From positions 1 through 26,680 of the IMG/VR virus record IMGVR_UViG_3300024999_000339: a DNA stretch of 26,680 nucleotides. One strand, given 5' to 3'. Of this stretch, positions 1,805-16,609 are shown in pieces (within the stretch, counting starts at the first letter, position 1; each line of letters starts with the position of its first letter). The stretch is from a virus. Made by a program: the position numbers and the translations under genes. The notes under the pieces were generated by a model. The model made no database searches, had not been told where the DNA came from, and saw nothing but the letters and a program-made list of their open reading frames with translations.

Positions 1805-3784
1805 TTGGCAATGATACAAAATATAACCAGAGCTAATAACTTCGTTAATGGTACGCCTGCTGACGCTGAAGCTGTAGATGCTGACTTTGATGCACTCTAC
1901 GAAAAGTTGTCTGAAATATTATATGCGTTTAGTAGCGCGTCGATAGGGGAAAGCATTGCTGAAAAGATGAATTGTGCCCCGATTGACGGACTTATTGACG
2001 GTACTATTTACGAAAAGCTGGCTGACATTAAAAGCCAGCTTGGCATTGCGGTTACAGGTACGATACCCAATTCAAGCCTAGAAGCAACTAAGCTAGTTAT
2101 TGAGCTACAAAGATTCCTTAAAAGCACGCGCAAGGAAAATGCAAACACCATGGCTGTCCACGATAAAAACGGACTAGCTATCCCAGGTACGAATAATATT
2201 TATGACTTATTAGATAATACGAACTCGTATTCTTGTGGTAAGCTAGATGCTACAAAGACCATGACAACTATTGCATTGAGCGTTGGAGCTACCAGTATAA
2301 CAGTGGATGACGCGACCGGAATCGTAGTTAATAATGAGTACACTATTCAGCAATCCGATAAGATGCAAAGTTTTATAGTAACCTCAGTATCTGGAAAAGT
2401 ACTCACCGTCCCTGCATTAGTAAATCCGTTCGGAGTCGGTGCTATTGTGTATCGATCCAACGTTATACTCGATCAAGGAAGAATGGTATTCGGAACCGTG
2501 AGGAGCGCAAATTTCCCTGTCAAGATAACTGACCCATCATTACTTCCTGCAGGGACAGTCAATGGGGTTGCCTATTCTCCTGATGGTAAGTGGCTTGCTG
2601 TAGCCAGTGGTTCAACTCCATATCTAATTCTCTATAAAAGAACAGGAGATGTATTCCTAAAACAGCCAGACCTTGATGGAAAACCAACGTCTGATTGTTA
2701 CTGCGTTGCTTTCTCGAAAAATGGAAAATACTTCACAGTTGGAACTAGTGGTTCAACGACTTCTCATTATAAAATATCAGGTGATGTATTTACTAAGCTC
2801 ACTCGACCTGTATCTTATCCTGCAGGAACAGTATATGGTGCTGACTACTCAGAGGACGGAACATATCTAGCCCTTTCCCAATCCTCATCCCCGTATTTGG
2901 TAATCTATAAAATAGACGATGTTGTTTTTACTAAGCTTGCTGACCCTGAGACTAAACCAACTGCGACATGCCACGGCATTAAATTTTCTCATAATGGAAT
3001 TTATCTTGCCGTATCGTCGGACGCTTCTCCCTATGTGTTCGTTTATAAAAGAACAGGAGATGTTTTCGATAAGATTAGTAATCCTGAATCATTACCAACT
3101 GGTGATGGTGACGCATTGTCATGGGGAAAAAACGATGAGTATTTAGCGGTAGCGCACGAAGTAACTCCGTTCGTTACGATTTACAAAAGGACATCAGACA
3201 CTTTTGCCAAACTAGCTAACCCATCAGTCCTGCCCACTGGAAATGCGTTCGGTGCGGACTTTAGTAAGGATGGCAGCTACCTAGCGATAGCTCACGCGGT
3301 TACTCCTTTTGTCACGATGTATGACAGGCTAAATGATACGTTCTCTGCCCTCCCTAACCCAATTTCTCTACCAGCAGACGATGCGAAGTGCGTTACATTT
3401 GGCCTTGATGATTCGTTTCTAACAATTGGTCATGATACTAATCCCTATATATCAACGTATAAATGCGGAACAAAGGTTGCTAATATTGATGTTCGGTATA
3501 ACGTAGTCCCTGTTGATCCGACAAAGGAAGTCTACGCATGGGTTCACCATGAAAAAGACACCAGTTTTAATATTACGCCTACGCTATCAATCGTTGACTC
3601 TGGAAGCGATGAACTATATGCATCAATGGCGCTGAGTACTACAGAAGTAAACGACAATCTGATTATGGATTCAGTAAGAGGTTCTGCTTCTTTATCGAAA
3701 AGTAAGGTTACGTTTAAAATGGCGATCGCTAAAGGAGTAAACGTAGATAAGGCTATTACTAAAATACTTGGCTCAGTGGTTTAA
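1805..3784 (+). CDS. Tail protein with seven-blade WD40-like propeller
   Basis: A protein of 659 residues. The TTG at 1805 is preferred over the ATG at 1811, because AGGTGG at 1792-1797 lies seven bases before it. The N-terminus (NFVNGTPADAEAVDADFDAL) has the 'NGTPADA..VDADF' form common at the virion-binding end of phage fibre proteins. Residues 252-556 hold seven repeats of about 46 residues. Each has a 'F/Y-S-x-D/N-G-x-Y-L-A-V' strand, a 'SPY/TPF...V-YK' strand and a 'DVF-x-K-L-x-x-P' turn, which predicts a closed beta-propeller. The last 100 residues are a separate region with no recognised motif. A receptor-binding or adaptor role in the tail is inferred. It sits between the nozzle-like gene and the ejection-type proteins. 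Confidence 0.65.
   Translation: MAMIQNITRANNFVNGTPADAEAVDADFDALYEKLSEILYAFSSASIGESIAEKMNCAPIDGLIDGTIYEKLADIKSQLGIAVTGTIPNSSLEATKLVIELQRFLKSTRKENANTMAVHDKNGLAIPGTNNIYDLLDNTNSYSCGKLDATKTMTTIALSVGATSITVDDATGIVVNNEYTIQQSDKMQSFIVTSVSGKVLTVPALVNPFGVGAIVYRSNVILDQGRMVFGTVRSANFPVKITDPSLLPAGTVNGVAYSPDGKWLAVASGSTPYLILYKRTGDVFLKQPDLDGKPTSDCYCVAFSKNGKYFTVGTSGSTTSHYKISGDVFTKLTRPVSYPAGTVYGADYSEDGTYLALSQSSSPYLVIYKIDDVVFTKLADPETKPTATCHGIKFSHNGIYLAVSSDASPYVFVYKRTGDVFDKISNPESLPTGDGDALSWGKNDEYLAVAHEVTPFVTIYKRTSDTFAKLANPSVLPTGNAFGADFSKDGSYLAIAHAVTPFVTMYDRLNDTFSALPNPISLPADDAKCVTFGLDDSFLTIGHDTNPYISTYKCGTKVANIDVRYNVVPVDPTKEVYAWVHHEKDTSFNITPTLSIVDSGSDELYASMALSTTEVNDNLIMDSVRGSASLSKSKVTFKMAIAKGVNVDKAITKILGSVV
2558..3472 (+). 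repeat. Seven tandem propeller-blade coding repeats
   Basis: The DNA coding for the propeller consists of seven units of roughly 137 bases. They are diverged at DNA level but keep short perfect matches. For example, the 20-mer TATAAAAGAACAGGAGATGT occurs at 2633 and again at 3044, 411 bases apart, which is three blades. Such repeats can gain or lose blades by recombination. Confidence 0.75.
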
Positions 3785-5440: not shown

Positions 5441-8400
5441 ATGGGTTACGATTTAATCAGTGCTGGTAAAAAGAAAACTAATACTAGCAACGGATATGAC
5501 TTGATGCAGTATGTTAAGCAACCTCCGGCAACTACACAGCCTGAGTTCTACGAAAATGCCACTCCTGACTATACGAAATATCTGACTACTTCACATGCCG
5601 TTAGTTCGCCTGTTGTTCAACCTACTCAGCCCTCAACGTGGGATCAAGTAAAAGCGGGAGACATTAAGGGTATACTTAATCAAGTAGGATTAGGTTTATC
5701 TCAAGGACTAGCCAATACCGGGGCAGCAAAGCAGAATGTAGACATTGCTAATATGCTGACGAATAATCCATTACCGGGTATGGCTGATATAGGTAGGCAA
5801 CAACTAGCTGGGATACAAACTAATCAGGAATATTTAAAAGCGAATCCCGCCGAGTCTCTTCCTGCAATTATTGGGAAAGAAATTCCTAGCTTGCCTTTGT
5901 GGATGGCTGGTGAGGGAGCAGTTGGTGCGTTGGGCAAGGGTATAGGTAAATTGTTCCCCTCTGTTATTCCGGCTGCCGAGAAGGTTGGTTCTAGGATTCC
6001 TAGTTTTATCAAGGGTGGTTTGACTGACGCGGCGGCTTACGGCGGAGTAGTAGCACCTACGCAGAATATCCAAGAAGGCGGTAGTATTCGGGATCTTCTT
6101 GAGCGAGAGAAGCAGATTCCGAACATTGCATTAGGTGGTGTAGCCGCAAGGGGAGCGTTTAAAGGAATAGGTGAAGGGGCTAAACTTGGTAAAGATGTAC
6201 TTGGAGAAGGTGGTTCACTCAAGCAAGCATTGGAATTAAGGAAGCTTAATATTCCTGAAATAAAGTCTAATCCTCTTGAGGATGTGCAAAACGCTTACAA
6301 AACAACTTTTTCTCTTCAAGATATTAAATCTGCCAATCCTGTCAATCGTTCGGTTCAGCGCGGGACAGAGTTAGGAACATTGAGGGTTAGTGATAGGATT
6401 ACCCCTCAATATAAAGCTAGGCAATCTGAATTGACGGATGCGTTCAAGGATCTCCCTATAGGTTCTACGAAGACCCCATTGGCACGTAATACCTTGCAGG
6501 AGAACATTGATAGCAGTATGGGTATTTCTAAGCCTACAGAGGTCTATCAGGGCTTAGATGCCTTTGGAAAACCCTTGCAGAATTATAAACTTAACACCGA
6601 TGCCAAGAATACCATAGCCGAGATTACGGATAAGATGGATAAGAAGGTTCAAGATATAGCTAAATCCATGAGGCAAGCAGATGGGCAAACTAAGGTTGAC
6701 TCTATCCGTAGTCAGGTTAAGGCTAGAGGTGGTATTAAGCAGGGAAACGCCGACATATTCGAAGAACAGAAAGTCATACCAAACTGGATTCGCAATGATA
6801 AGGGCGGCATGGCCCTAGATCAGATGGCAGACGAAATGAAGATGTCAGCTGATGAGTTATTGAGGGCTATAGATGATTCGGCGTATAGCAAAAAAGATTA
6901 TATCACCGAGGCTTATCGTGTAGCGTACAAGGACCCTGAGTATCAGGCGTTGAGCAATACGTTGGACAAGTTGAAGGCTGATTCGCAAGGTAAGGTAAAA
7001 TTACTTCGTAAGGATAAAATAACCACTCCCGATGATTTCCCATTTCCCATTAAGGATATTCCAATAATTCGTTATCAGAAAGAAGTTGGTCCGGCAACAT
7101 ATTCTGACCTAAGGGGAGGAACTTGGTATAACAGAGTAGACAATGTGCATGGCGAAAACACTGGTTACAATGCCGATGATAGCGCTGTCGGAGGGATGAA
7201 TAAATTAGCAGAGAATTATACTCCCAAAAAACCATTGTTGGTTAAGGATACGGAATCTGCTGGTGCAGGGGATGCCGCAATCAGGGCGATTAAGGGCGAG
7301 AAATATTTAGATGATGTTTATGAGGCATACTTTGATGGTCAGGAATCAATCAATACATTGCTTAGTAAGTTTGGTATTCCTGAACAAGAAGCAACCTTAT
7401 TAATGAAACATCCCGAACAGCCTCAAGTCTTATTGGATCGCGTTGGAACTGAGTTGGCGAAACAAAATGGCTACGATTCCATAGTCCATACTACCCCTAA
7501 TGGATTGTATGCCGAGATTGTCAAGTTAGATAGTTCACCCGGTAGAATAAAGGCTATTGATGGTCCTATCAAGCTCAAACCACGCGAACTAACTCCAAAA
7601 ACTACACCTGAAATACTCCCAATAGAATCATTTAAAAGACTGAAACCTTCAGGTAGCTTACCTGTAGATGAAGTTCCTAGACCTGTCAAGAAACTTACTC
7701 CTGTAGCTAAGGAGAAGTTGATTTGGACTAATAAGGATGGTATAGGGAGTTCTGGTGCAAAGATGAAGGATATTCCTAAGAGGGGAGAAGTTCCGGGTAA
7801 ATTGGAGGTTGGTCCTGCCAAGGTTGAGGGTGCGAAGATTGGTGATGGGATGGATCCGAAGTTGGTTTCGTCCCGTAAAGTAGTAAACGAGGATGTCTTT
7901 TGGAATAAGGTTAAATCGCAATCTAAGTGGCAAGGTGACATTCCGTCCTTACAGGAAGGCATTAAATCAGGACAGGTAAATATCGACGAACTTCCCCCTG
8001 AAATGGCTAAGGAAGTCAGATTGAAAATGAACTTGCAGATGTTCGGTGCTTCAGCAGATCCTTCTCTTCCTGAACCTCAAAGTAAGATAATTATCGGCAA
8101 GCAAAAGGAAAAAATAAACTTTAAAAATGCTTGGGATAAATTTTATACAGCCATTGTTAATACTCAGCAACCTATCGCTAATGCTGCCAAAGTTACTGGG
8201 TCGGATATAGGGAAGTTGGCAAGTAATACGAAGAACGTTAGCGGTATTATTGACCACAATTTCTTAACAGCATTAGTTGATAAGCAGGGTAATAAAGTTG
8301 GGGAATCTTTAAAGTCAACTGTGGAAGCTATCCCCAAGGGGCAGGAAGAAAAGTTCTGGACCTATATGTCTCAAAGGCATAATATCGACAGGGCAAGGCA

Positions 8401-10582
8401 AGAAAGCCATGAAGTTCCAAAGGTTGATAAGCAGGGTTTTCTTGTTAAGGATAAAGAGGGGAATCAACTTTACGATACAGTTATTGACAAAAAGCCTACA
8501 CCAGTTCAAGCTAATTACACATCCAAGATGTCTAAGGATGCCGTAAGAATTGCGGAGAGAGATAATCCTGAGTATAAAGCTATTGGGGATGGCATTGTTA
8601 AGTGGCTTGACGATTTTATGAGGACATGGGGTGTGGATACTGGAGTTGTCAATAAGGATATCTACTCATCATTAAGGGAAACATATAAGAGTTATTTCCC
8701 GACTCAAAGAGATTTTAGTGAACTTGAAAAAGCAATACCTGATAATGTTTCGCAGAAGTTTGCTAATCAGCGTACGCCGATTCGTAAAGCAACGGGTAGT
8801 GAACGCGATATCAAGGACCCGATTGAAAACATTATGAACCTAGTTGACCGGACAATAAGAACAGCAAAATATAATGAAGTTGGACAAAGCTTACTGAACT
8901 CAGTTAGGGAGGCACCTGAAAAACTTAAACCACTGGCTGAGGTTATCCCAACAAAGGATGGGATGTTCAGTAATTTAGACAACGTTATTACCGTTCTTGA
9001 GGATGGAAAACCTGTTTACCTGAAGATCAACGACAAGATGCTCCTTGATGCAATGAATGGATTGCCGAAGTCGATAGGTAGCATTCCGGTTCTTAGCACT
9101 TTGACGAATGGATTTAAGAGTCTAATAACTCAAAAGAATCCATTATTTGCTATTCGTAACATTTTCAGAGATATACCCACATCGTACGTGTACGGCTCGG
9201 AATCCAATCCTTTTAAATTCGGCAAAGGAATACTTGGGGCTAGTAAAGATGTTCTAACCAATAGCCAGCGCTTGCAAAAGTATAAGGCGGTAGGCGGTGG
9301 AGGTGGTAACTTCTTTTCGAGTGGAGACGTTACGAAGTCGGCTTCTGAATTAATGAATAAGGGAAGCGTTGTTAAAAAGATTGCGATGAAACCCATTAAG
9401 GCTATCGAATCGTTTAACACTCTTACCGAGACTGTACCTCGCTTGGCTGAATTCAACCGCGTGCTAGACAAAACAGGCGACATTACAAAAGCGTTGTATG
9501 CGTCTAATGATGTTACTGTAAATTTCTCTAGGGGTGGAAACATCACAAAGAATGTAGATAAAATTGCACCGTACGCCAACGCTGGGGTCCAAGGGCTTGA
9601 TCGCTTCTTTAGAGGGTTTTCCTCTCCCAAGGTTGCACTTGCAACAATGGCTAAGGCCGGGGTTGCTATTACTGTTCCTGATGTTGCACTTTATATGATA
9701 AATAGGGATAATCCTAATTATCAGGCGTTGGACAATAGAACTAAGGATAGCTACTTCTTAATTCCCAAGGAGGGCGGAAAAACCTTTATTAAAGTTCCTA
9801 AATCAAGAGAGTTGGGCGTATTGTTCGGGTCCCTGTTCGAGAGAAGCATGAGGGTGGCAGAGGGACAAAAGGAACCATTCAAAGGGTTTGGTAATGCTGT
9901 TAAGACAAATTTTTCTCCGACCAATCCATTTGATAGCAATTTTTTCTCACCAGCAACGTTTAATATTTATACCAACAAAGATTTCGCTAATCGCGCAATC
10001 GTACCGCAAGGTATGCTTATGGATAAACGCTCTAAATATCTTCAGTATGATGATAAGACTACGGAAATTGCAAAGGAAATAGGAAGATTAAGCACTAACA
10101 TTCCAGGGATACCCGGTGGATTATCTCCGAAACAATTGGATTATTTGGTTAAGTCGTATAGTGGGGTAATTGGCCAATTCGGTACTCCTTTATTAGTTCC
10201 CGGTGGAAGTCCAGGCAAGGTTCTGTCTACTCAATTCTCTGCCGATCCGAAGTTTAGCAATCAAGCGACTACAGACTTCTACGACAAACTAGATAAACTC
10301 TCGTCGGCAGCCGTGGATAAAAACATCCTTGAGAAGATACCTGCTAAAAAGTTAACCAAAGAGGAAGATATTAAGAACTCTATGGTTGGCGTAAGTTCAG
10401 CGTTAAACAGAGGAACTAAACTGATAAACAAAATTCAGGCTAGTTCTGATCCTGACAAGGAATCCAAGATTAACACTATCAAGTCTCAGATGCTACAACT
10501 GACCATGAGGGCTAATTCCGCTAAGGACGCGAAGGCAATGCAGCAGGTAGAAACTTATTCCAAGAAGTTTTTTACAAAATAA
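5441..10582 (+). CDS. Giant polyvalent virion protein, ART-like and LPD38-like regions
   Basis: A protein of 1713 residues; ATG at 5441 follows a GGGGGG stretch. An N-terminal Q/P/N-rich part (1-130) leads to a Gly/Ala-rich, partly hydrophobic part (~145-240). Residues ~420-480 contain a conserved-looking block (VKARGGIKQGN, then GGMALDQMADEM). Residues ~553-702 resemble ADP-ribosyltransferase domains of polyvalent proteins: 'DLRGGTWY', 'KKPLLVKD', 'LAKQNGYDSIVHTTPNG', 'AEIVKLDSS' and 'RIKAIDG'. An internal 'KMNLQMFG' sits at ~862-869. Residues ~1221-1443 match the LPD38 pattern: 'NPLFAIRNIFRD', a GGGGG stretch, 'ETVPRLAEFNRVLDKTGD', 'NDVTVNFSRGGN' and 'NAGVQGLDRFFRG'. LPD38 marks large phage proteins thought to be packaged and injected with DNA. 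The ART activity is a prediction from the pattern; the exact fold needs profile comparison. Confidence 0.7.
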   Translation: MGYDLISAGKKKTNTSNGYDLMQYVKQPPATTQPEFYENATPDYTKYLTTSHAVSSPVVQPTQPSTWDQVKAGDIKGILNQVGLGLSQGLANTGAAKQNVDIANMLTNNPLPGMADIGRQQLAGIQTNQEYLKANPAESLPAIIGKEIPSLPLWMAGEGAVGALGKGIGKLFPSVIPAAEKVGSRIPSFIKGGLTDAAAYGGVVAPTQNIQEGGSIRDLLEREKQIPNIALGGVAARGAFKGIGEGAKLGKDVLGEGGSLKQALELRKLNIPEIKSNPLEDVQNAYKTTFSLQDIKSANPVNRSVQRGTELGTLRVSDRITPQYKARQSELTDAFKDLPIGSTKTPLARNTLQENIDSSMGISKPTEVYQGLDAFGKPLQNYKLNTDAKNTIAEITDKMDKKVQDIAKSMRQADGQTKVDSIRSQVKARGGIKQGNADIFEEQKVIPNWIRNDKGGMALDQMADEMKMSADELLRAIDDSAYSKKDYITEAYRVAYKDPEYQALSNTLDKLKADSQGKVKLLRKDKITTPDDFPFPIKDIPIIRYQKEVGPATYSDLRGGTWYNRVDNVHGENTGYNADDSAVGGMNKLAENYTPKKPLLVKDTESAGAGDAAIRAIKGEKYLDDVYEAYFDGQESINTLLSKFGIPEQEATLLMKHPEQPQVLLDRVGTELAKQNGYDSIVHTTPNGLYAEIVKLDSSPGRIKAIDGPIKLKPRELTPKTTPEILPIESFKRLKPSGSLPVDEVPRPVKKLTPVAKEKLIWTNKDGIGSSGAKMKDIPKRGEVPGKLEVGPAKVEGAKIGDGMDPKLVSSRKVVNEDVFWNKVKSQSKWQGDIPSLQEGIKSGQVNIDELPPEMAKEVRLKMNLQMFGASADPSLPEPQSKIIIGKQKEKINFKNAWDKFYTAIVNTQQPIANAAKVTGSDIGKLASNTKNVSGIIDHNFLTALVDKQGNKVGESLKSTVEAIPKGQEEKFWTYMSQRHNIDRARQESHEVPKVDKQGFLVKDKEGNQLYDTVIDKKPTPVQANYTSKMSKDAVRIAERDNPEYKAIGDGIVKWLDDFMRTWGVDTGVVNKDIYSSLRETYKSYFPTQRDFSELEKAIPDNVSQKFANQRTPIRKATGSERDIKDPIENIMNLVDRTIRTAKYNEVGQSLLNSVREAPEKLKPLAEVIPTKDGMFSNLDNVITVLEDGKPVYLKINDKMLLDAMNGLPKSIGSIPVLSTLTNGFKSLITQKNPLFAIRNIFRDIPTSYVYGSESNPFKFGKGILGASKDVLTNSQRLQKYKAVGGGGGNFFSSGDVTKSASELMNKGSVVKKIAMKPIKAIESFNTLTETVPRLAEFNRVLDKTGDITKALYASNDVTVNFSRGGNITKNVDKIAPYANAGVQGLDRFFRGFSSPKVALATMAKAGVAITVPDVALYMINRDNPNYQALDNRTKDSYFLIPKEGGKTFIKVPKSRELGVLFGSLFERSMRVAEGQKEPFKGFGNAVKTNFSPTNPFDSNFFSPATFNIYTNKDFANRAIVPQGMLMDKRSKYLQYDDKTTEIAKEIGRLSTNIPGIPGGLSPKQLDYLVKSYSGVIGQFGTPLLVPGGSPGKVLSTQFSADPKFSNQATTDFYDKLDKLSSAAVDKNILEKIPAKKLTKEEDIKNSMVGVSSALNRGTKLINKIQASSDPDKESKINTIKSQMLQLTMRANSAKDAKAMQQVETYSKKFFTK

Positions 10583-10583
10583 A

Positions 10584-10612
10584 AGAGAGCAAGGTATTTA
10601 GCCTTGCTCTCT
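10584..10612. terminator. Bidirectional hairpin terminator between convergent genes
   Basis: An 11-bp perfect stem, AGAGAGCAAGG (10584-10594) with CCTTGCTCTCT (10602-10612), loop TATTTAG. It begins two bases after the stop of the giant gene and ends four bases before the stop of the opposing gene. On the minus strand it is followed by CTTTTATTTTG, a reasonable U-tract, so it serves the minus-strand operon best and probably the virion operon as well. Confidence 0.8.
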
Positions 10613-10616
10613 CCTG

Positions 10617-10925
10617 TTAACTATGTTTATTTTTGTAATTGTAATCAATTTCATTCTGCATTCTCTGGATCGAGTCTCCACTTTTATTAAAGGGCGGGAA
10701 TCTCCTGTCTAGCTCAGCATAAATTGATTTATGGGTTTTGTACCACATTCCTATTAGTAAAACAAAGGCGATCCACCAAGGTAATTCCCCAAGACTAGGC
10801 AAAATAGCCACTGAAACTATTGTAACGAGGTAAAGTATTAATCCTGATACGATCATCATTAGTATGTATGTAATTCCAATTACTTTTTCCCAAAACTTTC
10901 TAGAAAGCCAATCGTCGTCACTCAT
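10617..10925 (-). CDS. Small two-helix membrane protein of unknown function
   Basis: A protein of 102 residues on the minus strand. The start has an AGGGG ribosome binding site about seven bases upstream. Residues ~15-42 (VIGITYILMMIVSGLILYL and onward) and ~48-62 (LPWWIAFVLLIGMWY) are two hydrophobic segments, so it should lie in the cytoplasmic membrane. The N-terminus is acidic and the C-terminal tail is charged (DRRFPPFNKSGD). No family is recognised. It is in an antisense island with lysogeny-type genes inside the late region. Small membrane proteins in that setting are often superinfection-exclusion or other lysogenic-conversion products, but here that is only a suggestion. Confidence 0.7.
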   Translation of the reverse strand: MSDDDWLSRKFWEKVIGITYILMMIVSGLILYLVTIVSVAILPSLGELPWWIAFVLLIGMWYKTHKSIYAELDRRFPPFNKSGDSIQRMQNEIDYNYKNKHS

Positions 10926-11074: not shown

Positions 11075-11908
11075 TTATGCTTTTTGTGCCATGATATTCT
11101 GCAACAGTTGAACGGTCTTTGCGTTCCAATAGATTTGGAATCCCTCCCATTTGCTATTTCCAGTTTGCTTGGACGAATCCTGCATAATTCCGTATTCCTT
11201 GCCTTTGTCGGTCAAATGCCAAGGGTTAGTCTTAACCAGTCGCTCCTTTCCTTCTCTTTTTCCAGCTTCTCTGATACCATACTGTAATCCGATTTCTTCA
11301 AGAAGGAGATTGACTTGATTTGCCTTGAGTTTTAATTTATCTCCTATTTGACTAGCTGTAAATATTTCAGCTTCTTCTTGATCTACAGCAGGAAGGAGTC
11401 GGCGATAACTATCAAGTGATAATCCTGATTGATGTTCCACCCTGGCAATTGCAACGGCAAGAGCACGTTCTGTTCTAATTCCTGCTGCTTTTGCAAATTC
11501 CTTAGCAAAACGGATTTCTCCTACAGCAATTTTATCCCAAGTAGGGATGGGTTTAGTCTTGCGACCTTTCATGGTTTCCATAACGTGGTAGTATTCATCA
11601 ACTAGTGATTCGTAAGCATTCCATGCTGCGTCTGTGTTTAGTGATTTAGCATGATGCCACGCACCTTTTTCGGTCCAGAGGTAGAGCTTATTAACATTGG
11701 GCGCGATTCCTAAACAATCGTGTTCGCGCTTAAACGTCCTTAATGCATCACCTTCTATACAATAGTAGTGTTTACCTTCGGTGAATCGGTCGGAATTGTT
11801 CAGAAAATTATTATTGATCATTTTAATTGTTGCTCCATACGACTCGGATAATTGCTCACTTGTTAAAATCCTCTGCCCTTGATAATCTACTGGAACTATC
11901 GCGCTCAT
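11075..11908 (-). CDS. ORF6N-domain phage antirepressor-like protein
   Basis: A protein of 277 residues. The ATG at 11908 overlaps the TGA of the gene before it (ATGA), and GGAG of that gene's end acts as ribosome binding site. Residues ~5-100 fit the ORF6N DNA-binding domain: 'VDYQGQRILTSEQLSESYG', 'MINNNFLNNSDRFTEGKHYY' and 'LYLWTEKGAWHHAKSLNTD'. The C-terminal half has 'TASQIGDKLKLKANQVNLLL' and, later, 'NPWHLTDKGKEYG'. This resembles the KilAC-type helix-turn-helix region seen at the end of phage antirepressors. Such proteins relieve or redirect repression of lytic genes, by DNA binding or by binding a repressor. The repressor itself is not in this window. The domain order is read by eye. 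Confidence 0.75.
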   Translation of the reverse strand: MSAIVPVDYQGQRILTSEQLSESYGATIKMINNNFLNNSDRFTEGKHYYCIEGDALRTFKREHDCLGIAPNVNKLYLWTEKGAWHHAKSLNTDAAWNAYESLVDEYYHVMETMKGRKTKPIPTWDKIAVGEIRFAKEFAKAAGIRTERALAVAIARVEHQSGLSLDSYRRLLPAVDQEEAEIFTASQIGDKLKLKANQVNLLLEEIGLQYGIREAGKREGKERLVKTNPWHLTDKGKEYGIMQDSSKQTGNSKWEGFQIYWNAKTVQLLQNIMAQKA

Positions 11909-12204: not shown

Positions 12205-12294
12205 ATAATTTTCCTCCTTTTAATTAGCCCTTGCCAAAGGAGTTTACTGCTGTTAAGATTAAAGCAGATGATCCTCTTTGGAGGGTGGTTTTTG

Positions 12295-12331
12295 GGAAGT
12301 CCGAATCTCTTGGTTGGGGGAACGGACTTCC
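12295..12331. other. 9-bp inverted repeat, possible antisense terminator or attenuator
   Basis: GGAAGTCCG (12295-12303) and CGGACTTCC (12323-12331) pair perfectly around a 19-base loop. On the plus strand TTTAGTTTT follows, so it could stop plus-strand (antisense) transcripts. On the minus strand it lies directly after the HTH gene stop and could reduce transcription into the next gene. It has no U-tract in that direction. Confidence 0.45.
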
Positions 12332-12332
12332 T

Positions 12333-12503
12333 TTAGTTTTGGCTTTTTTGCCGTTCAAGCCATTTTTGAATGTCTGATTCTCGATACCGAATACTCTTAC
12401 CGCTGCCAATGTATGGCATGCCTTTACTTCGCCACTTCCACGCTGTTCCGTGAGTAATTTTTAACCATTTGCATAATTCAGAAGTGGTTAATAGCTCGTT
12501 CAT
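12333..12503 (-). CDS. Small HTH protein, excisionase (Xis)/MerR-like
   Basis: A protein of 56 residues read on the minus strand from ATG at 12503, with AAAGGTGG about seven bases upstream. The sequence has the excisionase-type winged HTH pattern: 'LLTTSELCKWLKIT' (helix 1 and start of helix 2), 'GTAWKWRSKGMPYIGSGKSI' (recognition helix and wing) and 'RYRESDIQKWLERQ' (final helix). Proteins of this kind bend DNA as recombination directionality factors or act as small transcription regulators. No integrase is nearby, so a regulatory role is equally possible. It is the first gene after the minus-strand promoter and probably leads the operon 12503-11075. Confidence 0.85.
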   Translation of the reverse strand: MNELLTTSELCKWLKITHGTAWKWRSKGMPYIGSGKSIRYRESDIQKWLERQKSQN

Positions 12504-12523
12504 GACTCGCCACCTTTCATTCG

Positions 12524-12573
12524 TATGATACTGCTTACATTTATATGATACTCTATTATATCCACATAGTCAA
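12524..12573 (-). promoter_or_regulatory. Promoter of the minus-strand operon with direct-repeat operator
   Basis: On the minus strand, TTGACT (12568-12573) and TATCAT (12545-12550) are separated by exactly 17 bases, a good sigma-A promoter about 40 bases before the HTH start codon. The nine bases TATGATACT (plus strand) occur twice, at 12524-12532 and 12544-12552, 20 bases apart, or about two helical turns. One copy covers the -10 box and the other the start of the transcript. This layout suits an operator for a repressor, perhaps the HTH protein itself. Confidence 0.6.
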
Positions 12574-12654
12574 TACTTTTTCGGAAATATTTCAAAAAAA
12601 ATAGCACCTATATTCTAGGCACTTCTCTGCTTCTATTTATATGAAGTAAAAATA

Positions 12655-12683
12655 TATACAACCCTAAAGATCTTTGATATAAT
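12655..12683 (+). promoter_or_regulatory. Promoter for the large structured RNA
   Basis: TATACA (12655-12660, four of six -35 bases) and a perfect TATAAT (12678-12683) are spaced 17 bases apart. The expected transcription start is about 12690, which is the first base of the helix that closes the RNA domain. This agreement between two independent signals supports both. Confidence 0.65.
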
Positions 12684-12689
12684 AATATC

Positions 12690-13261
12690 AACTAAATAAA
12701 ACGAAGCCACGAGCGGTCTAGAGAACCGCCAGCAGCTTCTAGCGTTAACCTGAAAAAAGCAGGAAAACACTTAACTTATTATACTTCACTAGGACAACCT
12801 AGGGCAAGTGTAAATTAAGGAATTTTCAGCTACAGACCGTTAGAAGTTTGTAGCTTTTGTGATTCCTAGTGGAAGTATAAGCACACTTTAAACTATACGG
12901 GGTTGGTGGCCCCTCTAAAACAAACTGCCAACACGGACTAGGCATTACTCGTTATGCTGTGGACTCCGTGGAAAGGCGATGGCTGCCTTAAAGGTCAGGT
13001 GTGGAAGTATCGGTATGGGGCATGTTCATATACCACCTCTCGGACGATCTTGAGAGAGTAGAACATGTTGCGAAAGCAAGTGACAACGAGGTCTGGGCAT
13101 AATCCGATACCCGATTAGACGGATAAAACTTAGATTTACTCTCTTACTCGTTTAGAAATACAGAAAAAATATGTGTTTCTATTCTGAGTAAGGGGGTAAC
13201 TATCTAAACGTTTCCGTCCCCTCTTACCGGATCTTAATTAGAACGACGAAGTTTACTAGTT
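12690..13261 (+). ncRNA. Large ornate structured RNA (~572 nt), candidate ROOL/GOLLD class
   Basis: No plausible gene lies between 12504 and 13295. The plus strand folds into many helices. The ends pair: AACTA (12690-12694) with TAGTT (13257-13261) and AAAC (12699-12702) with GTTT (13251-13254). Inside are 12703-12707/12735-12739 around 12713-12717/12725-12729; 12744-12752 with 12760-12763 and 12771-12775; a 16-bp helix 12779-12794/12864-12880 holding 12828-12834/12849-12855; 12932-12937/12965-12970; 12973-12977/12985-12989; 13007-13013/13104-13110 around 13021-13027/13061-13067 and a TTGC-GAAA-GCAA hairpin (13068-13079); and the nested arm 13118-13123/13213-13218, 13130-13135/13202-13207, 13143-13149/13186-13192, 13153-13161/13173-13181. 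The GAAA loop and G-U pairs fit only the plus strand. Size and phage setting suggest ROOL; the family is inference. Confidence 0.7.
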
Positions 13262-13295
13262 ATAAAAGGAAATACACTGAAAAAGGAGGAACCAC

Positions 13296-13520
13296 ATGGA
13301 CCACTTCGACAACGCATCCGGCCCAGAACAACGGTACCGCAACGATCTACTCAACGAACTACGCATGCAATCCTCTCTGCTAACCGAACTAAAAGAGCAA
13401 AACAACCTACTCAAAGACCTAATCAAACTCCTGCAAACTCCAAAACCTGACCAGCCAAAAGTAGTGAAGCGTGTTCCATCTAAGAAGAAAGTCGATGCAA
13501 TAATTAAGAGGGGGCTTTAA
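13296..13520 (+). CDS. Small coiled-coil protein directly after the structured RNA
   Basis: A protein of 74 residues; AAAGGAGG lies a few bases before the ATG. Residues ~15-50 form a leucine-rich amphipathic helix (LLNELRMQSSLLTELKEQNN and onward, with L/I heptad spacing), predicting a coiled coil and oligomerisation. The C-terminus is basic (KVVKRVPSKKKVDAIIKRG), which could bind nucleic acid or another acidic partner. The first two thirds use unusually many C-ending codons compared with neighbouring genes, a possible sign of separate origin. It starts 35 bases after the closing helix of the RNA and has no terminator before it. It may be a fibre-assembly protein or may act with the RNA; neither is shown. 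Confidence 0.8.
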   Translation: MDHFDNASGPEQRYRNDLLNELRMQSSLLTELKEQNNLLKDLIKLLQTPKPDQPKVVKRVPSKKKVDAIIKRGL

Positions 13521-15901: not shown

Positions 15902-16609
15902 ATGTTACTAAGAACACAACCCATCAAATACGTTGACTTGCACCACACAGGCGGTCATGAACAAAATACCCAAGCCATCAGAGAATACCATGTCAACGTT
16001 CGTGGCTACGGTGATATTGGCTATAACTCAGTCATCGAGTCAAACGGAACAGTTGGAGTTGGTCGCGATACTAAATGGGCAGGTGCTCACGATCCCGGCA
16101 TAGTTCCGGGCGAACCCTATCCCATGAATCAACTTGCTTATGCAATTTCGCATATAGGCGACTTCATGAAAGAAGAGATGAACGAAGTTCAATTTCAAGC
16201 GTCTATGGCTGAGTGTGTGAGGGTTTGTAAGCTCTACAACGTACCCTCAAGTGGTGTCAGGCGACATAAGGACCAATACGCTACAGATTGCCCAGGGGAT
16301 AATTTCCCCTACAAAAGATATATCACAGAGCTGGACAAAAGGTTGAAGGGGGGTGATGAAGTGCTAGAAGTAGCAATCTTAAAGTTTTCGGCAGAAGATG
16401 AATGGGCCGCGAAGGATATCGATGCCAAACTTGGAGGAGTGGCAAACTTTACGCGGCAGGGGGCTGGTAGGATTATTCCGAAGGACGCGATGGCGGCGAA
16501 GCGTTTGATTGTGGTGGGTGGTCCTACTACGAATCATCCCAATGAGGTCCTTTTAAGCGGAAAAACGAAATTTGATACAGCCGTAGTGGTCGGAAAGTAT
16601 TTGGGTTGA
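15902..16609 (+). CDS. Endolysin, N-acetylmuramoyl-L-alanine amidase (Amidase_2)
   Basis: A protein of 235 residues; TGAGGT lies before the ATG. Residues ~8-148 form an Amidase_2 (PGRP-type) domain, with 'YVDLHHTGG' near the start (His 14 the likely first zinc ligand), 'GYGDIGYNSVIESNGTVGVG', 'AISHIGDF' and 'RRHKDQYATDCPG' (His 122 and Cys 130 the other ligands). It cuts the amide bond between muramic acid and L-alanine. Residues ~155-235 form a second domain containing 'KLGGVANFTRQGAG' and 'LIVVGGPT'. This resembles cell-wall-binding repeats of the CW_binding_2 type in clostridial wall proteins and would target the enzyme. There is no signal peptide, so export depends on the holin. Confidence 0.9.
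   Translation: MLLRTQPIKYVDLHHTGGHEQNTQAIREYHVNVRGYGDIGYNSVIESNGTVGVGRDTKWAGAHDPGIVPGEPYPMNQLAYAISHIGDFMKEEMNEVQFQASMAECVRVCKLYNVPSSGVRRHKDQYATDCPGDNFPYKRYITELDKRLKGGDEVLEVAILKFSAEDEWAAKDIDAKLGGVANFTRQGAGRIIPKDAMAAKRLIVVGGPTTNHPNEVLLSGKTKFDTAVVVGKYLG

Follow-up and report, generated by a model that had tools for sequence, protein, structure and literature searches.

Few RNAs are as poorly understood as the large structured ones of phages. ROOL forms an octameric cage made of RNA only, and EAR of Bacillus is a cis-acting antitermination RNA. The put RNA of phage HK022 is likewise a cis-acting antitermination RNA (PMC9378689). ROOL is frequently located near tRNA islands, a setting that is typical rather than required (PMC12286853).

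Here, we analyzed a large RNA candidate in IMG/VR virus record IMGVR_UViG_3300024999_000339, taken as a whole (26,680 bases; referred to below as the window). The window codes for virion proteins, including an LPD38 protein at 5441-10582, and also contains small genes; a protein of the virion gene block (1805-3784) carries WD40-like beta-propeller repeats, which are unusual in a phage. The candidate region, 12690-13261, lies between minus-strand genes and a plus-strand open reading frame (ORF) starting at 13296. An initial annotation, made from the sequence alone, had described it as a noncoding, structured RNA of about 572 nt with its own promoter and a helix joining its two ends, and had proposed it as a candidate member or relative of ROOL or GOLLD or, failing that, as a new class of large RNA. 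The setting is as follows:

11075-11908, minus strand: ORF6N antirepressor gene
12600-12654, plus strand: conserved upstream region, ATTTATATGAAG..AAA..TATATACAA, common to the window and phage contig L040
12655-12683, plus strand: sigma-70-type promoter from a consensus scan, with equivalents in phage contigs L040 and L030 and a predicted start near 12690
12690-13099, plus strand: sequence-supported part of the structured RNA, based on its relatives and covariance model R1; certain to about 12930 and probable to 13099
13296-13520, plus strand: first gene downstream of the RNA (74 amino acids), with homologues in related phages
15902-16609: amidase endolysin gene

Between the divergent promoters, TTTATATGA occurs at 12540 and again at 12636, and TATGATACT is found twice near 12523-12550. 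These repeats (12520-12650) may serve as operators for the regulatory genes on the minus strand.

Comparison with known RNA families

In its length, phage setting, many helices, and lack of coding sequence, the region resembles ROOL; with GOLLD it has in common that it is large, structured, and phage borne and that part of it varies. However, when the record was scanned against all families of Rfam 15, no family reached its threshold, and none was meaningful for the RNA region at an E value of ≤10. The ROOL model (RF03087; threshold, 99.1 bits) found no match in the window record or in the two phages carrying relatives of the RNA, whereas it recovered the positive control, the established ROOL on L. 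salivarius plasmid pMP118, at 130.4 bits. GOLLD was also without a match in the all-family scan, which was run without a GOLLD positive control. Unlike the typical ROOL setting, neither the window nor the other loci tested contained tRNA genes (no relevant tmRNA or tandem repeat was found there either), and the conserved part of the RNA is much shorter than ROOL. Membership in ROOL or GOLLD thus found no support in these searches, and the RNA appears, by sequence, to be new at the family level: it is not ROOL, and there is no sign of GOLLD.

A structured RNA with its own promoter

The predicted fold energy of 12690-13261 was −183.8 kcal/mol, corresponding to a z-score of −5.9 on the plus strand and −4.6 on the minus strand, against values between −1.9 and 1.8 for 300-nt windows elsewhere in the record. 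The signal was carried by a 5′ core (12700-12895; z, −4.3) and a 3′ arm (13098-13262; z, −5.9) and was absent from the middle (12895-13110; z, −0.8). No plus-strand ORF of at least 60 amino acids was present within 12690-13261. The promoter ahead of the region, TATACA-17-TATAAT with a TG before the second hexamer, matches the consensus at 10 of 12 positions; it was the only site with at least 10 matches on the plus strand between 10.5 and 26.7 kb, while the scan-wide number of sites was about the same in shuffled sequence. The noncoding character, the promoter, and the plus-strand structure noted initially are all upheld by these results, and the GAAA tetraloop (hairpin 13067-13080) and G-U pairs singled out at the time are indeed present in the sequence. 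The end-closing helix (12690-12702 with 13251-13261) fared worse: it can be drawn, but depending on how much 3′ sequence is admitted, 202 or 422 of 1000 shuffles pair equally well. Since this helix is at chance level and also lacks support from the relatives, it does not define the 3′ end of the RNA. That we are dealing with a real structured RNA outside the known Rfam families is nevertheless highly probable.

A conserved core in related phages

Relatives of the RNA were found in two other phage contigs, L030 and L040, and share with the window a core of about 200 nt (12702-12930) at approximately 73% identity. Positions 9835-10051 of L030 match window positions 12673-12892 (73% identity), and the relative in L040 lies at 1625-1879 (73%); the cores of L030 and L040 are 94% identical to each other. 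Equivalent promoters precede both (L040, 1645-1673; L030, 9817-9845). Farther upstream, the alignment of window positions 12561-12690 with L040 positions 1561-1680 reached a local score above those of 1000 of 1000 shuffles, and the conserved stretch in it (12600-12654) is a possible regulator site. Because this upstream region is kept in the window and L040, although the surrounding genes differ, the promoter and the RNA go together. The elements along the RNA, all on the plus strand, are as follows:

12703-12739: hairpin P1, GAAGC/GCUUC and GCGGU/ACCGC, with both-sided changes in the relatives
12744-12768: hairpin P2, GUU AA CCUG ... CAGG AA AAC, with an invariant stem and a variable loop
12770-12819: arm P3, with base CUUAA/UUAAG and tip CUAGG/CCUAG
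12829-12854: hairpin P4, with a both-sided change from U-A to G-C
12858-12885: hairpin P5, outer UGUG/CACA and inner UUCC/GGAA
12922-12929: AAACTGCC, retained in all three phages; L030 and L040 part ways right after it
13067-13080: tetraloop hairpin GUUGC-GAAA-GCAAG, identical in L040
13120-13216: long stable 3′ arm; stretches holding it have z-scores of −5.4 to −6.1

P1 to P4 can form in all three phages, P1 with local mismatches, and 93.8% of the alignment cells in the core fold are paired, versus 32 to 49% when the partners are slid. Changes on both sides of a helix affect two pairs in P1 and one in P4. A few compensatory changes are thus present, but the covariation score was reached by 42 of 500 shuffles, and with three sequences, of which L030 and L040 are 94% identical over the core, covariation is supportive rather than decisive. 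P1 also has a competitor, as the 5′ end (ACAAAGC in the relatives) can alternatively pair with the end of P4 (GCUUUGU).

Beyond the core, further 3′, ATGTTGCGAAAGCAAG is letter-identical in L040, and CTGGGCA is likewise common to the window and L040, with the order of the two motifs unchanged; the best local score was reached by 25 of 1000 shuffles. No significant similarity was seen past 13099. Conservation by sequence is clear from 12690 to about 12930 and, on the basis of L040 only, probable to 13099. The sequence of the 3′ arm shows no significant homology between the phages, and the arm is a candidate part of the RNA. Among the initial proposals, the best fit is the new class of large RNA, although the conserved part measures about 200 nt, probably about 400 nt, and not 572 nt.

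Collections of phages, plasmids, and species genomes yielded no further true member. Against 50,697 phage and 72,556 plasmid records, blastn with the window RNA returned short chance matches only, as did the L040 copy against the phage records. The core pattern had 22 matches in 84,980 species genomes, approximately the chance expectation, none of them with a meaningful covariance-model score, and the only true matches of the core and 3′ patterns in viral contigs were L030 and L040. R1 was also run on 380 genomes belonging to one class and on 398 from its phylum, with three weak matches (L080, L081, and L118), all rejected because they lay in or across genes; that class had been picked via a Sporomusaceae MAG that proved to be a chance pattern match and need not include the phages' host, so that absence from these genomes says little. 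Each of the three RNA-bearing contigs either stems from one of a set of metagenome samples with closely spaced numbers or is related to contigs that do, and the known spread of the RNA is narrow, so far one group of phages.

Location and possible mobility

In L030 and L040, the RNA is found after the holin gene rather than before the 13296 ORF, behind a terminator that belongs either to the lysis genes or to another RNA gene. With the core at a different genome place in these phages, the promoter and RNA behave as a movable cassette. Conversely, the RNA is missing from the window site in phages closely related to this one; upstream of their homologue of the 13296 ORF lies an HNH endonuclease ORF (L005) or a putative secreted-protein ORF (L003). 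This position is a cargo hotspot, where, depending on the relative, one finds the RNA, a putative secreted-protein ORF, or HNH endonuclease ORFs (window, 12224-13296; L005, 15408-16331; L030, 5259-5942; L003, 5491-5898). A leader specific to the 13296 ORF was ruled out, as that ORF is present in L003, L005, and L030 without the RNA in front of it. The downstream genes are retained in relatives that lack the RNA and so do not depend on it; from this comparison, we argue that the RNA is accessory.

The L030 core passes into a reading frame that stays open over 333 nt (chance, about 0.003). The frame, open for 228 codons from the RNA core (10016-10702), ends in a SLOG (YAcAr) domain; L040 holds a broken remnant of the same gene. 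No similarity was found between the L030 downstream protein and the product of the 13296 ORF.

Possible functions of the RNA

We propose that these phages carry an RNA cassette, consisting of its own promoter and a folded core of about 200 nt, with a larger, variable 3′ part following the core, and that this cassette occupies the heads of different operons in related phages. In all three phages, the RNA lies ahead of co-directional genes, and a crude consensus search scored no terminator between it and the next co-directional gene in the window, L030, or L040, so transcripts of the downstream operon would begin with the RNA. A folded RNA directly behind a promoter, heading an operon and with no terminator after it, is also the arrangement of put and EAR, from which the window RNA differs in being much larger; its sequence relation to them was examined through Rfam only. 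The core would then act in cis on transcription of the downstream operon, by processive antitermination in the manner of put or EAR or by attenuation at P4 and its U-rich stretch (UUUUGUGAUU or UUUGUGUUUU). We would give a cis action of the core, through antitermination or attenuation, a probability of roughly 0.4.

Comparison among the phages supports the ingredients of this proposal, namely, a core fold that appears to be kept at the RNA level, a conserved promoter, and different locations. The fold signal stands out from a background near zero, and two relatives carry core and promoter elsewhere. The both-sided changes in P1 and P4, the high pairing fraction, and the upstream region conserved with L040 all point in the same direction. 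P4 with its U-rich stretch scored as terminator-like in all three phages, and no terminator was scored before the next gene. The sequence after the core is exchanged from phage to phage, which is what one would expect if the core were a leader, and at the equivalent operon head L005 and L007 possess another conserved structured leader behind a promoter. Against a cis action, the downstream genes persist in relatives that lack the RNA; the window RNA greatly exceeds known antitermination RNAs in size; no more than three members are available, two of them closely similar in the core, for a covariation score that shuffles can match; the U-rich stretch after P4 is short; and the terminator scan was a crude one.

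The closest competitor, slightly less likely, is a stand-alone ornate RNA carried as moron-like cargo; it would resemble ROOL and GOLLD without being related to them and would work in trans or as an RNA particle. The size and complexity of the RNA in the window, the joint occurrence of promoter and RNA at unrelated loci, its absence from relatives, as would be expected of cargo, and its placement after a terminator in L030 and L040 would all suit this reading. On the other hand, neither a terminator nor a conserved 3′ end was found, the 3′ half is exchanged or diverged in L030, and tRNA genes are not nearby. A cis-acting operon-head RNA is favored as slightly more likely, on account of the operon-head position without a terminator, the linkage of promoter and RNA, the open frame in L030, and the leader in L005 and L007.

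Alternatively, the RNA might be a smaller one of about 160 to 240 nt, an sRNA or attenuator ending at P4 or P5, with the remainder of 12930-13261 being unrelated sequence with a hairpin-forming insert. While the concentration of conservation in the core, the U-rich stretch directly after P4, and the lack of a fold signal in the middle region agree with this, conservation continues beyond P4 to P5 and AAACUGCC in all three phages, and the window and L040 share motifs in the same order further 3′; we consider it unlikely. A divergent member of ROOL or GOLLD, for which a length near that of the ROOL model (574 positions) and the phage setting might speak, is highly improbable given the lack of any Rfam match with a working ROOL control.

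It is possible, though less likely than not, that the RNA founds a new class of large phage RNA, either an operon-heading cassette that controls RNA polymerase elongation via its core of about 200 nt or a new RNA-only particle. If the former were true, the elongation-controlling core would be larger than known antitermination RNAs. The function of the RNA is testable, since the RNA comes with a promoter and a clearly delimited core, and both phages that have it and phages that lack it at this site occur in nature.

Other RNAs in the phage group

The same phage group yielded two further unannotated RNAs. One, about 220 nt long and structured but unrelated to the window RNA (GTGTAGTGGCG...CCATACCTACAC...), directly follows the holin gene; it has a promoter-like sequence and a terminator and was without an Rfam match in the contigs scanned:

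L040, 1363-1600
L111, 11341-11600
L003, 8995-9155
L009, 18296-18438

The other is a 46-nt leader with a three-way junction fold (GUGGGCUAGGAGGCAUCC...UGCCCA) behind a promoter, riboswitch-like in size:

L005, 15321-15366: 46-nt leader
L007, 10762-10793: 32-nt core of the leader

By exact search, the central 32 nt of this leader are identical in L005 and L007, two diverged phages with different ORFs downstream.
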